DNA of 64,000 nt from Chthoniobacterales bacterium. Lineage in GTDB: Bacteria; Verrucomicrobiota; Verrucomicrobiia; Chthoniobacterales; UBA10450. The notes under the pieces are model-generated. The model saw only the letters and a list, made by a program, of their open reading frames with translations, made no database searches and was not told the origin of the DNA. Shown here piece by piece: positions 9,775 through 59,426 of this stretch (the stretch's first letter is position 1; every line of letters starts with the position of its first letter). Made by a program: the position numbers and the translations under genes. Location: positions 124,001 to 188,000 of the forward strand of contig DATENU010000021.1 in assembly GCA_035274845.1 (NCBI GenBank), given 5' to 3'.

Positions 9775-9863
9775 TTCTGTAGCCGTCGCCCTGCGGGCGA
9801 CGCGAGAGAACGCGCCGCGACAAACGGAATCGATGCGTCGCCCACAGGGCGACGGCTACAGAA
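9775..9863. repeat. Palindromic intergenic element C, 18-bp inverted ends
   Basis: A perfect 18-bp terminal inverted repeat (arms 9775-9792 and 9846-9863, ending in TTCTGTAGCC) encloses two further hairpins. These are GTCGCCC/GGGCGAC with a 3-nt loop (9785-9801) and CGTCGCCC/GGGCGACG with a 3-nt loop (9836-9854). It lies 6 nt after the pgeF stop and 6 nt before the lpxA stop, between convergent genes. Confidence 0.85.
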
Positions 9864-38994: not shown

Positions 38995-39223
38995 AGGTGG
39001 ATCGGCAAAGGTGGATCGGCCGCTCCGCGGGCGATGGTGGTGAATATGCGCTGGTCCTCGCCCATCGAGCGGCGGAGCGCTCGATCCCCTACCTCAAATT
39101 GCAAAATATCGACGAGACCGATACCGTCGCTTTTGCCGAAATAGGTGGATCGGCCGCTCTGCGGGCGATGGTGGTGAATATGCGCTGGCCCTTGCCATCG
39201 AGCGCGGAGCGCTCGATCCACCT
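38995..39223. repeat. Palindromic intergenic element F, two copies plus a fragment
   Basis: Two copies of an 81-86 bp element (39009-39094 and 39143-39223) share aggtggatcggccgct, gcgggcgatggtggtgaata and gcgctcgatc in the same order. Copy 2 has perfect 11-bp ends TAGGTGGATCG/CGATCCACCTA, with TA at both edges. A short third fragment of the left end lies at 38995-39005. The stop codon TAG of the BNR gene (39222-39224) overlaps the right edge of copy 2. recQ and the BNR gene converge here. Confidence 0.88.
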
Positions 39224-42200
39224 AGTGCAAATTGTAAATTTCGACCAGGCCGATCCCGATGCCGCCACTCTGGCCAGCCAGAATCGCGGTAAAGCTTCCC
39301 GCGGGCAGCGACGTGAAAATCCCCGACTCTTTCTGATCCGAAAGCGCGAAACCATTTGCGATTAGCTGCGCCGCGGCAGCCGAATCGTCCTGCCAGTTGT
39401 CATTCGAAATAAGGAGGGCTCCGTTGCTGTCGCGTAACTCCAGGATGGGATCAGCCAGGACGGGATTAAGACCGGCTTGAGCGAGCGACGGTCCGATGCC
39501 GCGCACGACTACACGCGTGGGATTGCTGGACCCGCCGAGAATGAAGCCGCCGATCATGACATTTTCGCCTGTCCGGACGAATCCACGCGTGCTGATGTTC
39601 GCCAGCTGCGAGGCTCCGCCTTGGTTCGTGTCGTAAACTTCCACCAGCCCCACGCCGGTCCCCTGGTTCTTTCCGGCCACGATCACGGTGTAGGCTCCCG
39701 GCTGAAGCGGCGCCACCAGTCCCGACTCGTTCGAGTTGGTGGGAGCCAGCCCGAGCGCAGTCAACTGCGTCGCCTGGGCGGGATCATCCTGCCAGTTGTC
39801 GTTTCCGAGGATGAGGGAGCCGTCGCTGGCCCGAAGCTCCAGGGTAGGGTCGGCCAGGGGGTCGCTGATTCCAAAGCCGGAGAGCGATGGTCCAATGCCG
39901 CGCACTGCCACGGTCTTGGTGGCGGTGCCGGTGATAATAAAGCCGCCAATCACCACGTTGTTTCCAGTTTCAACCCGAAGCCGGGTCGAGATGTTTAAAG
40001 CCTGGGCGGTGTTGGGCGTAGCGGTAGCCGTTGGAGTGGGCGTTGCCGACGGGGCAACGGTAGCGGTCGCCGTTGGACTCGGAGTAGATGTAGGCGTCGG
40101 CGTGGCCGTCGCGGTTGGAGTGGCGGTTGGTGTCGGCGTGGCCGTCGCGGTCGCGGTTGGGGTCGGAGTAGCTGTCGGTGTTGGCGTCGCGGTTGGGGTT
40201 GGTGTCGGCAGGCCCAAATCGGTCCCGTAACTTCCCTTGCCACTGGCCAGCATGAGTCGGGAGAAACCCGCAAAGGCCAGTTCGCGGGGATTCCCCACAC
40301 CCTGGAGGCCACTGGCGAATGGCGAGAAAGTCATGCCCCCGTTCTGCGAGCGCACGACTTGAGATCCTTCACTCGTCAGACTGACAAAGAGCAGTTGCCC
40401 GTTAGGGTGGCAGGCGATGTCGTTGGCCGAGCCGGCGCCGGTCCAGCCCGTGGATACCCAGGTTTGGCCGCTGTCAGGACTGCGGAATAGCCCGCTCGAA
40501 CTGAAGCTGAGCGAGCCCACCAGGAAGAACGTTTGTGGGTCGTTAGGCGAGGCGCACAAGTGGGGTGCGCGCAAGAAGGTGGGCAAACCCGAGCTGGATG
40601 GGACCCACGACATTCCGCCGTTGGTGGAGCGCCGCACCCCGGCCTGATTACCGCCAGATAAATCGTCGTAGGCCGCGAGCATGACCTGATCGAGTCCATC
40701 CTCGACGATCTCGATGTCGATTACTTTCTGGGAACTGCTGAACTCGTCGACCTTGGTCCACATCCCGCCGGCATTGATGGAGCGCCAGATAGTGCCCTCG
40801 AAGCCCGCCACTCCGAAGTCCGCGCCTCCAAGCAGGATCAGGTTCGGATTGTTGATGCTAAAACGGATCGTGGCGAGATCTGATTCAAATAGGGTGCCCT
40901 GGTCGGGGCCGAGAGATGTCCAAGTGCCGTTACTCTCCCGCCGATAGAGACCCTCCGGGGCAACGGTCGAAGGGCCGCTGGAGATGGCGTAAAGCGTTCC
41001 ATTCGGAGCAAAGCGAACGGCGCTATACCGGGTCGGCGGCGCCGATTCCAATTTCCAAGTCGTGCCACCGTCCGTGGAAGAGAAGACGCCGCCATTATTC
41101 GAACCTTGAAATGCGACCGCCAGCTCGTTCGGGTTGAGCGGGTTTGCGTGAATGGAAAACAGATCGATCGCCGAGATGCCGCGTGACGAGCTGGTAAACG
41201 TGTTGCCGCCGTCGGTAGAGCGAAAGACCGCCAGGGAAGTGGTGCCGAGAAACAGCGTGGTAGAGTTGCCCGGCCGAAAACGCAGGGAACGTGCGGCTAG
41301 CGCCGAAGTCCCGCCGATGCCGATCTGCCAGGTTGCGCCGCCGTCGATGCTGCGGTGGACGCCGGTGCCGTCCGTGGCCACCAAGATTTTTTGCGGATCG
41401 TTCGGATCGACGGCGATGTCGGTGACCACCAGCCGTGGCCAGGTGTTATCGTGCCGCGGGGTCCAGGTCATACCGAGATTGAGCGACTCATACAGGCCGA
41501 CGTTTTGTCCGCCGAAAAGCTGACCGCCGCCGACGAGCAGCCGCGTGCCATTGTAAACAACCGCTTGCATTGGGTTGTTCGGCAGGCCGGCGGAACGATT
41601 CGTCCAGGAGCTTCCACCGTTGGTCGTCACCCACACCTGGCCACCGCCGAAGGCGCCACCAAAGACGGCGATTACGGTGTTCGAATCGGTCGGATGGACT
41701 GCGATTGCCTGGCAGCTCACCGCCTGGCCCAACGGCGGCGTGAGATTGGCCCAAGTGACGCCCCCGTCGACCGAGCGCATGACGTTGATCGGCTGCGCGC
41801 CGTTCGCGTCGGCTACCCCTGCCCAAAGAATGGAGGGATTCGATGGGTCGAGCGCGATGTCCAATACCTGGTCGTTAGCTCCGATGCCGAGGTTGCGGGG
41901 TGTCCAAGTGAGGCCGCCGTCAGTACTTTCCCTGATGCTGTCCAGGGTGGCGATATACACCTTGCCGCTAGCTGCAAATTCTATGTCGTAGACGCTCGTC
42001 CCAATCAGAGCAGGCACCTCCGACCAATTGTTGCCTCCGTCAGCGGAGCGATAGAGGCTGGTGTCGGTGCCAGCCAGCACGATGTTTGGATCGACCGTCG
42101 AGACGGCGACATCAGTGACATTGCCGCCTGGAGGGCCGAGTAGCGACCATGCGCCGATTCCCGCGAGGGTAGCGTCCGAACTTTTTGCGTCTCGCGAACG

Positions 42201-45567: not shown

Positions 45568-45652
45568 GTTGTAGCGACGGCGCTCTGTCGCCGTAAATCT
45601 GCTTTGCCTCCGCTTCGCGCGCGTTACGCCGACTGAGCGGCGTCGCTACAAC
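45568..45652. repeat. Palindromic intergenic element D; supplies the stop of rsmA-NUDIX
   Basis: Perfect 12-bp ends GTTGTAGCGACG (45568-45579) and CGTCGCTACAAC (45641-45652) enclose a CGGCG/CGCCG hairpin and a GCCG/CGGC hairpin. It lies between convergent genes. Read on the minus strand, the right half encodes the last residues CCSDAAQSA and the TAA stop (45624-45626) of the RsmA-NUDIX protein. Confidence 0.85.
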
Positions 45653-50383: not shown

Positions 50384-50390
50384 TTTTTCA

Positions 50391-50595
50391 GCGCCAACGG
50401 CGCAGCATCACTTCAAGCCTGGGGCAACGCCCCAGGATAAATAGCAATTAGTCAGCAGCGCTGAAAGCGCGATTCAAAGCTGAGTGGTCGCGCTTCGTGA
50501 TGACCCGCCGTGAGTCGCGCTTTCAGCGCTGGTGCCCTCCGATTGTTTTACCTGGGACGTTGCCCCAGGCTAAGATGAAATTGCGCCGTTGGCGC
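50391..50595. repeat. Nested palindromic intergenic element G (205 bp) between tkt and dnaB
   Basis: Three sets of arms pair across the whole element: 14 bp (50391-50404 with 50582-50595), 14 bp (50416-50429 with 50558-50571) and 17 bp (50456-50472 with 50515-50531), all perfect. The second pair also forms local CCTGGGGC/GCCCCAGG hairpins. It starts 7 nt after the tkt stop and ends 1 nt from the dnaB stop. Confidence 0.92.
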
Positions 50596-50596
50596 G

Positions 50597-52081
50597 TTAC
50601 ATCGGCTCCGGAACGTTCCGGGCGCGATCTTCGAAGCGGGTGAATTCCTTCAGGAAGGTCAGCGCAATTTCGCCCACCGGGCCATTTCGCTGCTTCGCAA
50701 TAATCAGCTCGGCTTCACCGGCTTTCTCGGCCCGGGCGTCTTCATCTTCTTCGTAGATTTCCGGCCGCACCAGCAGGCCCACTAAATCCGCGTCCTGTTC
50801 GATCGAGCCCGACTCACGCAAATCGCTCAGGCGCGGTTTGCCGCCGGTCCTCGCTTCCGGCTGGCGATTCAACTGGGCCAGCACGACCACCGGCACCTTC
50901 AATTCCTTGGCGAGACCTTTTAAGCCGGATGAGATTTCGGAAATTTCGAGCTGCCGATTGTCCTGCGCGCGCCGCGTCGTCGAACGCAACAACTGCAAGT
51001 AATCGACTACGATCAGCTTGATGTCCTTCTGTGCCTTGAGCCGGCGTGCCTTCGCCCGCAATTCGAGAATGCTCAGGCTCGCACTGTCGTCGATGAAGAT
51101 TTGCGCTTCCGCCAGCTTGGAGGCCGCAGCCGTCAAACTCGGAAAATCGCGCTCGGCCAAAAATCCATCCCGCACCTTTTGCAGGTTCACCCGCGCCCGA
51201 GAGCAGAGGAGACGTTGCACCAGCTGCTGGCTGCTCATTTCCAAACTGAAAACCGCCACCGGCAATTTTTCATTGATCGCGACATGCTCGGCGATGTTCA
51301 TGGCCAGCGCCGTCTTACCCATGCTGGGCCGCGCGGCGATCACGATCATCTCGGCTTCGTGCAAACCGTTCGTCATTCGGTCCAGCTCGGCGAACCCGGT
51401 CGAGATCCCGGTAATTCCGCCGCGCCTCTCGTAAAGCTGTTCGATCGCTTCGATCGCCTCCATCACCTGGTCCTTCATGGTCAGCATCTGGCCCTTGAAG
51501 CGATCTTCGCCCACGGAGAAAATTTTCTGCTCCACTTCGTCGAGCAGGTTGTGCACTTCATCCTGTTCCTCGAACGAACGGCGCACGCTTTCCGTGCAGG
51601 CGGCGATGATCTGGCGGAGAATGTATTTGTCCCGAACGATCTCGAGATAGTAGGTCACGTTCGCCGCCGTCGGGACAAAGGTGAAAAGACTCGTGACCGC
51701 CGCGGCGCCGCCGACGGTTTCGAGCAGATTCTGATCGCGCAAAACCTGCGTAAACGTGATTAGGTCGATCCCCTGTCCCGCGTTCCAAAGCTCGACCAGG
51801 ACCGTGTAGATTGTCTGATGCGCGGGGTCGTAAAAATAGTCCTCGTTAATTTTTTCGACGCATTCCGCGATGATTTCGCGCGGCGAAATCAGCATGGAAC
51901 CGAGGACGCCCTGCTCGGCCTCGACGCTGTGCGGCAACGTCCTGTGAATATCCTGCGAGGAAGCTGTGAATGACCCGCCGCCGTTTTGGCCGCCATTCTT
52001 TTGCGGCCAGCCTCGGCCGGGCTCGTTGCCCGATTTCTTGCGAGACTGCTGTCCTCCCCTCAGGGATGGATCAGTAGCCAT
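50597..52081 (-). CDS. dnaB: Replicative DNA helicase DnaB
   Basis: Hexameric 5'-3' helicase of the replisome, 494 residues. An N-terminal extension of about 48 residues is Gly/Lys/Gln-rich and probably disordered. The DnaB N-terminal domain (LPHSVEAEQGVLGSML) follows. The RecA-like domain has Walker A ARPSMGKTAL at 250-259, Walker B LIVVDYLQLL, and DLRESGSIEQDADLV. No intein is present. It lies 4 nt downstream of rplI, the common rplI-dnaB order of many bacteria. It ends directly at element G. Confidence 0.97.
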   Translation of the reverse strand: MATDPSLRGGQQSRKKSGNEPGRGWPQKNGGQNGGGSFTASSQDIHRTLPHSVEAEQGVLGSMLISPREIIAECVEKINEDYFYDPAHQTIYTVLVELWNAGQGIDLITFTQVLRDQNLLETVGGAAAVTSLFTFVPTAANVTYYLEIVRDKYILRQIIAACTESVRRSFEEQDEVHNLLDEVEQKIFSVGEDRFKGQMLTMKDQVMEAIEAIEQLYERRGGITGISTGFAELDRMTNGLHEAEMIVIAARPSMGKTALAMNIAEHVAINEKLPVAVFSLEMSSQQLVQRLLCSRARVNLQKVRDGFLAERDFPSLTAAASKLAEAQIFIDDSASLSILELRAKARRLKAQKDIKLIVVDYLQLLRSTTRRAQDNRQLEISEISSGLKGLAKELKVPVVVLAQLNRQPEARTGGKPRLSDLRESGSIEQDADLVGLLVRPEIYEEDEDARAEKAGEAELIIAKQRNGPVGEIALTFLKEFTRFEDRARNVPEPM

Positions 52082-59310: not shown

Positions 59311-59426
59311 TCTCGGGTAGGGTGGGCGTCTCGCCCGCCGGTTTTCGCGTCACGCGAAAATAATCTTTCAAGTTCGCGAACGCGAGACGCGTTCGCCGGC
59401 GGGCGAGACGCCCACCCTACCCGAGA
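59311..59426. repeat. Palindromic intergenic element H with 31-bp perfect inverted ends
   Basis: Perfect 31-bp terminal arms (59311-59341 with 59396-59426) enclose a TTTTCGCG/CGCGAAAA hairpin with a 3-nt loop (59342-59360) and a CGAACGCG/CGCGTTCG hairpin around 59379-59395. The right edge touches the TAA stop of the E2 gene (59427-59429). The left edge is 36 bp upstream of the rhodanese start. Confidence 0.93.

Follow-up and report, generated by a model that had tools for sequence, protein, structure and literature searches.

The 205-bp palindrome between tkt and dnaB in the window (the whole 64,000-nt stretch of DNA analysed) is very probably a copy of a REPIN-like, non-autonomous element, which would derive from, and would have been moved by, a transposase of the type encoded on contig C19 of the same genome. 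It is a dispersed repeat and no one-off switch, and its building block, a half-unit of three small hairpins, brackets the transposase gene.

The tkt/dnaB palindrome consists of two inverted half-units

Reading of the sequence bore out the three perfect arm cores of 14, 14 and 17 bp of the original prediction as well as the distances of 7 nt and 1 nt between the palindrome ends and the stop codons of tkt and dnaB, respectively; the convergent junction of tkt (+) and dnaB (-) is almost entirely occupied by the palindrome. The outer (50391-50404/50582-50595; 14 nt, 100%), middle (50416-50441/50546-50571; 26 nt, 88%) and inner (50453-50476/50511-50534; 24 nt, 92%) inverted pairs nest in register. 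RNA folding, which had been proposed as a check, gave -139.9 kcal/mol (z -16.4) for the + strand and -133.9 kcal/mol (z -12.7) for the - strand, and on either strand 0 of 200 shuffles folded as well. The palindrome is thus real and well above chance. Local folding had been predicted for the second arm pair; this pair does fold locally, but so do the others, since all three arms are self-complementary on both sides, giving six local hairpins (Table 1).

Table 1 Features of the palindrome at the tkt/dnaB junction (window positions)
Feature	Position	Strand	Basis
Half-unit A (H1-H2-H3), outer edge to inner GATTCA	50389-50476	+	R1 covariance-model match C21:174389-174476, 90.9 bits, E 8e-17
Hairpin H1, GCGCC-AAC-GGCGC	50391-50403	+	sequence; half-unit alignment
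Hairpin H2, CCTGGGGC-AAC-GCCCCAGG	50418-50436	+	sequence; half-unit alignment
H2-H3 linker, 21-25 nt in all copies, near-random sequence	50437-50457	+	copy comparison
Hairpin H3, GCGCT-GAA-AGCGC, then GATTCA	50458-50470	+	sequence; half-unit alignment
34-nt centre; counterpart in the C19 locus (same genome) holds the transposase gene	50477-50510		locus comparison
Half-unit B, inverted copy (H3'-H2'-H1')	50511-50597	-	R1 match C21:174511-174597, 81.6 bits, E 1e-14
Hairpin H3'	50517-50529	-	sequence
Hairpin H2', one G-T wobble pair on the - strand	50551-50569	-	sequence
Hairpin H1'	50583-50595	-	sequence

Half-units are dispersed in the host genome

A DNA search turned up 59 matches in the own genome (G000; 4.54 Mb, 24 contigs). 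With the covariance model of the half-unit (R1, threshold E <= 1e-10), 41 half-units were found at 23 intergenic sites, which were counted by hand. Of these sites, 13 are head-to-head pairs (among them the pair around the transposase gene), 4 are tail-to-tail pairs and 6 are solos; one further half-unit, beyond this make-up, adjoins the transposase locus. Apart from the transposase gene within its own pair, no gene predicted by a codon-usage model overlaps the sites. Related genomes contain half-units as well, and the absence of other copies, which had been named as the outcome that would speak against the original prediction, was not what the search returned.

In general, the half-unit has a length of ~90 nt and is composed of H1 (GCGCC-AAm-GGCGC), a spacer of 12-15 nt with TCA in most copies, H2, a linker of 21-25 nt, H3 and GATTCA. 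Among the copies of the own genome the hairpins are near-invariant (99.3% of cells paired), whereas the linker has kept its length and lost its sequence (between-copy identity 0.30 vs 0.26 expected by chance). Because the linkers have diverged to near-random identity, most copies are old, and the pair on contig C20 is the only clearly recent one. At the tails of the half-units (window 50471-50476 and 50511-50516), TCA follows H3, and usually also H1, and TGAATC precedes H3' on the opposite strand. These motifs are reminiscent of the guide and cleavage tetranucleotides of IS608; the distant families described below do not share them.

The original prediction had the palindrome alternate between a single long stem and several small stems. 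Such a function is unsupported: conservation lies in the three small hairpins within every half-unit. Arms taken from one element do not clearly resemble each other more than arms taken from different elements do (identity within vs between elements 0.74 vs 0.82 for H1, 0.97 vs 0.95 for H2 and 0.36 vs 0.30 for the linker), that is, joint upkeep of both arms as one long stem was not seen among the own-genome copies, and half-units also occur alone or tail to tail. With the hairpins kept and no clear excess of similarity between partner arms, it is the small hairpins that form the conserved unit, and the long stem arises passively as a by-product of two homologous half-units placed head to head. 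For compensatory changes, also proposed as a check, the signal within the own genome is weak (one double change) because the stems hardly vary, whereas the hairpins of distant relatives have other sequences and are nevertheless self-complementary. The structural argument therefore rests on the distant relatives.

A single Y1/HuH transposase gene is bracketed by half-units

The complete element, half-unit - Y1/HuH transposase gene - inverted half-unit, is present once in the own genome (C19:20203-20883). The Y1_Tnp gene (C19:20312-20773) sits exactly between the two inverted half-units and takes the place of the 34-nt centre of the short element. It is the only gene copy of its family in this genome, compared to 41 half-units. 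The encoded protein has 154 amino acids and matches Y1_Tnp (PF01797, E 2e-23); it passed the NCBI model for IS200/IS605 transposases (NF033573) with 64 bits (cut-off 55) but failed the model for REP-associated tyrosine transposases (NF047646) with 24 bits (cut-off 80). A profile of the family matched structures of IS608 TnpA (E 1e-15); in the alignment, the Y and Q of the family fall on YIENQ. The HuH motif, Y119 and Q123 are conserved in 21 homologues; one distant member deviates at the first His. A C-terminal HTH domain was not found in the C19 transposase by Pfam.

The link between repeat and transposase extends to the family. Among 61 genomes, the half-unit was present in 12 of 12 with a cognate transposase (at least 63% identity, some fragmentary) but only in 14 of 49 without (Fisher p 6e-6), and at the loci that were read in relatives the half-units adjoin the cognate gene. 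At the locus of the congener G026 that is orthologous to the C19 locus (flanks 75-77% identical), a half-unit, ~30 nt and an inverted half-unit were found, and no gene. The occurrence of both forms at one locus makes the short nested palindrome and the element with the gene two states of one element, in whichever order they arose. Many half-units were also seen in genomes without a detected cognate gene (48 in G045, 19 in G044 and 16 in G023), which may reflect fragmented assemblies, gene loss or independence from the gene. In G026, which has 54 half-units, the cognate transposase is split over two frames (L209, G026:C28:88729-89187). Few of the compared half-unit sites are common to congeners (20 regions read from G026, 18 from G045); this fits turnover, though the divergence of the linkers makes most copies old. 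One shared site has a full doublet in G026 (L200, G026:C47) and a shorter form in the own genome (C22:268228-268316), which looks like an internal deletion.

Proposed origin of the palindrome and alternative explanations

We propose that the 205-bp palindrome is the gene-less form of the element in which two inverted half-units enclose the Y1/HuH gene. By analogy to IS608 TnpA and to TnpA-REP of E. coli (PMC8266576), which both bind hairpins as single-stranded DNA, the transposase would bind the folded arms of the half-units in this form, then cleave and rejoin near them. Short gene-less doublets would spread in trans by means of the transposase. One of them would have inserted between tkt and dnaB, where, as a side effect, the hairpins in its RNA probably terminate both transcripts or protect them.

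Alternatively, the palindrome could be a bidirectional terminator or a structure protecting the 3' ends that was selected for the convergent gene pair, an explanation we regard as possible, though rather unlikely. It would account for a palindrome that spans the whole junction and ends so close to both stop codons. Moreover, six congeners (G006, G019, G026, G033, G039 and G045; L170-L175) lack the half-unit element at this junction and have other inverted repeats there, so that a hairpin may be required at this place. These repeats differ from congener to congener and several are GTAG-footed (CTGTAGCCGCTTCGC...); in G026, G039 and G045 the stop codon of tkt seems to fall within the repeat or at its border, and in some congeners the repeat appears to supply this stop codon. 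A need for some hairpin and a repeated landing of palindromic repeats fit these observations equally. Against selection as terminator stands the distribution of the copies: by the codon-usage gene model, 7 sites are convergent, 11 tandem, 4 divergent and 1 unclear, and 7 of 22 classifiable sites is no preference for convergent junctions when compared to the junctions of the window (p 0.37). Further, a terminator scan gave two matches, a weak one of 5 pairs on the - strand at the dnaB end of the palindrome and another outside it, which lies within the spread of the shuffles (mean 0.8, sd 1.1), and elsewhere the half-units bracket a transposase gene. We agree with the original prediction that the structure goes far beyond a normal terminator, and copies of it are dispersed elsewhere. 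A role as terminator at tkt/dnaB is possible as a secondary use, and secondary, if there is any such role, is the best reading.

A structured RNA, riboswitch-like or an sRNA, that changes between the long stem and the local hairpins is highly improbable. Both strands do fold very stably, and the long stem (-139.9 kcal/mol) contrasts with only -69.6 kcal/mol for the local hairpins; however, near-equal folding of both strands is expected of a palindrome at the level of DNA, the arms do not co-vary as one stem, units occur solo and tail to tail, a Rfam search of the region gave no match and a promoter scan revealed no promoter-like site, nothing beyond chance. A conventional MITE of a double-strand (DDE) transposon, which the inverted arms around a gene-less centre would resemble, is, if anything, even less credible, since the bracketed gene is Y1/HuH and not DDE, half-units are also found alone and tail to tail, and no target-site duplication was seen at the element ends, which are placed only approximately.

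Comparison with known repeat-transposase systems

The REPIN-like element at tkt/dnaB belongs to a system that is a variant sharing its logic with known REP-type systems and differing in the unit. Like the REPIN/BIME repeats of Pseudomonas and E. coli with their RAYT (TnpA-REP), it comprises intergenic doublets in which small hairpin units lie in inverted orientation, a HuH-Y1 gene, mostly present in one copy, between units of the same kind, and units arranged head to head, tail to tail or solo (PMC3116915, PMC8266576). In the broad sense, two traits of REPINs and REPtrons are found: dispersed intergenic palindromic units, often as inverted doublets, and one HuH-Y1 gene with such units on both sides, the latter also in relatives of the family. 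A canonical REP, however, is one hairpin of 20-50 nt with a GTAG foot (PMC3116915, PMC8266576), whereas the half-unit described here has ~90 nt and three hairpins. GTAG was not found at any hairpin foot in the own-genome half-unit alignment and, together with the low NF047646 score, this sets the system apart from a canonical class 2 RAYT with GTAG REPs.

Among published systems, class 3 TnpA-Y1 comes closest. These are short Y1 transposases with a Y...Q motif from Planctomycetes, Acidobacteria and Proteobacteria, 24 proteins flanked by "several atypical secondary structures" that have CnGA as their 5' foot (Quentin et al. 2018, PMC6006769). Going by this text description, size, Y/Q motif, phyla and flanking structures agree, and the Y motif of the C19 transposase includes the Q known from class 1 (Y119 and Q123, invariant in 21 sequences). 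In contrast, the inverted H1-H2-H3 half-unit, the gene-less doublets and the wide range of phyla are not in the main text of that paper (PMC6006769), and inspection by eye of the half-unit alignment and the alignments of relatives revealed no constant CnGA 5' of H1, H2 or H3 on either strand. TIRtrons also have Y1 transposases (TIRYTs) flanked by long, partly self-complementary inverted repeats, as found here (PMC3733652); some of these repeats form families, and several of the cases are from Acidobacteria (PMC3733652), but the GGGGWSAS motif of many TIRYT repeats (PMC3733652) was not seen here. Most TIRYTs are placed in subclass 2.1 and carry a C-terminal HTH domain (PMC6006769), unlike the C19 transposase as judged by Pfam.

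By sequence, IS608 of the IS200/IS605 family is the closest solved structure, with HuH, YxxxQ and hairpins at the element ends in common, and the C19 protein is a HuH-Y1 transposase of the IS200 family. Each end of IS608 carries a single hairpin, its two ends are not inverted, and it moves as a unit. Unlike IS608, the system described here has inverted triple-hairpin arms, a single-copy gene and many short elements; multiple near-identical complete mobile copies, as in IS200/IS605, were not found in the own genome, which has one gene copy.

Ordered hairpin arms in distant relatives

Transposases of the same family with 35-46% identity are accompanied by H1-H2-H3 or H2-H3 arms of different sequences, some without H1. 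The named relatives, mostly metagenome-assembled genomes with taxon names as deposited, are from Verrucomicrobia, Planctomycetes, Acidobacteria, Bacteroidetes, Ignavibacteria, Fibrobacteres, Armatimonadetes and Nitrotoga. Inverted flanks exceeded every shuffle tried in 47 of 60 relatives with enough flank. In a sample of 73 named-taxon loci (146 arms), a strict detector found the inward H1-H2-H3 triple in 47 arms, whereas all 1460 shuffles and all 307 windows far from the gene lacked it; a two-hairpin result at one locus (L106) was an artefact of an N-run and was excluded. With wider flanks the triple was found in 52 of 146 arms, and 40 of the 73 loci had at least one such arm. Reversed order was seen in 29 of 146 arms, compared to the 52 inward ones; this asymmetry is only moderately supported because the spacing ranges of the detector overlap. 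Sharing of the H3 sequence amounted to 0.90 within a locus but 0.48 between loci (12 loci). The hairpins of the distant relatives have changed in sequence and yet remained self-complementary, with the ordered plan kept.

It is about as likely as not that these ordered triple-hairpin arms, with fixed spacing and inverted around the gene, constitute the conserved recognition module of a widespread, multi-phylum HuH-Y1 lineage. Alongside IS200/IS605 and REPtrons, and intermediate between them, this lineage would represent a third type of repeat-transposase system, which repeatedly yields gene-less doublets like the one at tkt/dnaB. Known REP systems have one hairpin as substrate, whereas here three in fixed order, a deeply conserved set, accompany an IS608-like enzyme and the hairpin sequences turn over. 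Reading of shape rather than sequence by such an enzyme becomes testable, as does the route from an insertion sequence to a dispersed repeat family, of which the C19 locus and its gene-less counterpart in G026 are a natural snapshot.

Other repeats and Y1 genes

Two inverted doublets with GTAG feet in the window (9775-9863 and 45568-45652; CTGTAGCCGTCGCCC... and GTTGTAGCGACGGCG...) look like canonical REPINs of another family. The inverted repeat GGTGGATCG...CGATCCACC at window 39142-39224 is also found around a Y1 gene on contig C7 (C7:97649; L056, G000:C7:97940-98060) and is probably the own repeat family of that transposase. Two further Y1 genes of the genome are flanked by inverted repeats of other sequence, CTGTAGCGGCGGTCTCAGACCGTCG at L037 (G000:C8:22729-23037) and GGAGCCGGCACGCCATCGTGCCG at L036 (G000:C18:12744-13067). 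A 46-nt inverted repeat with 89% complementarity, a 24-nt loop and the sequence GGGTAGGGTGGGCGTCTCGCCC is located at window 59311-59426.
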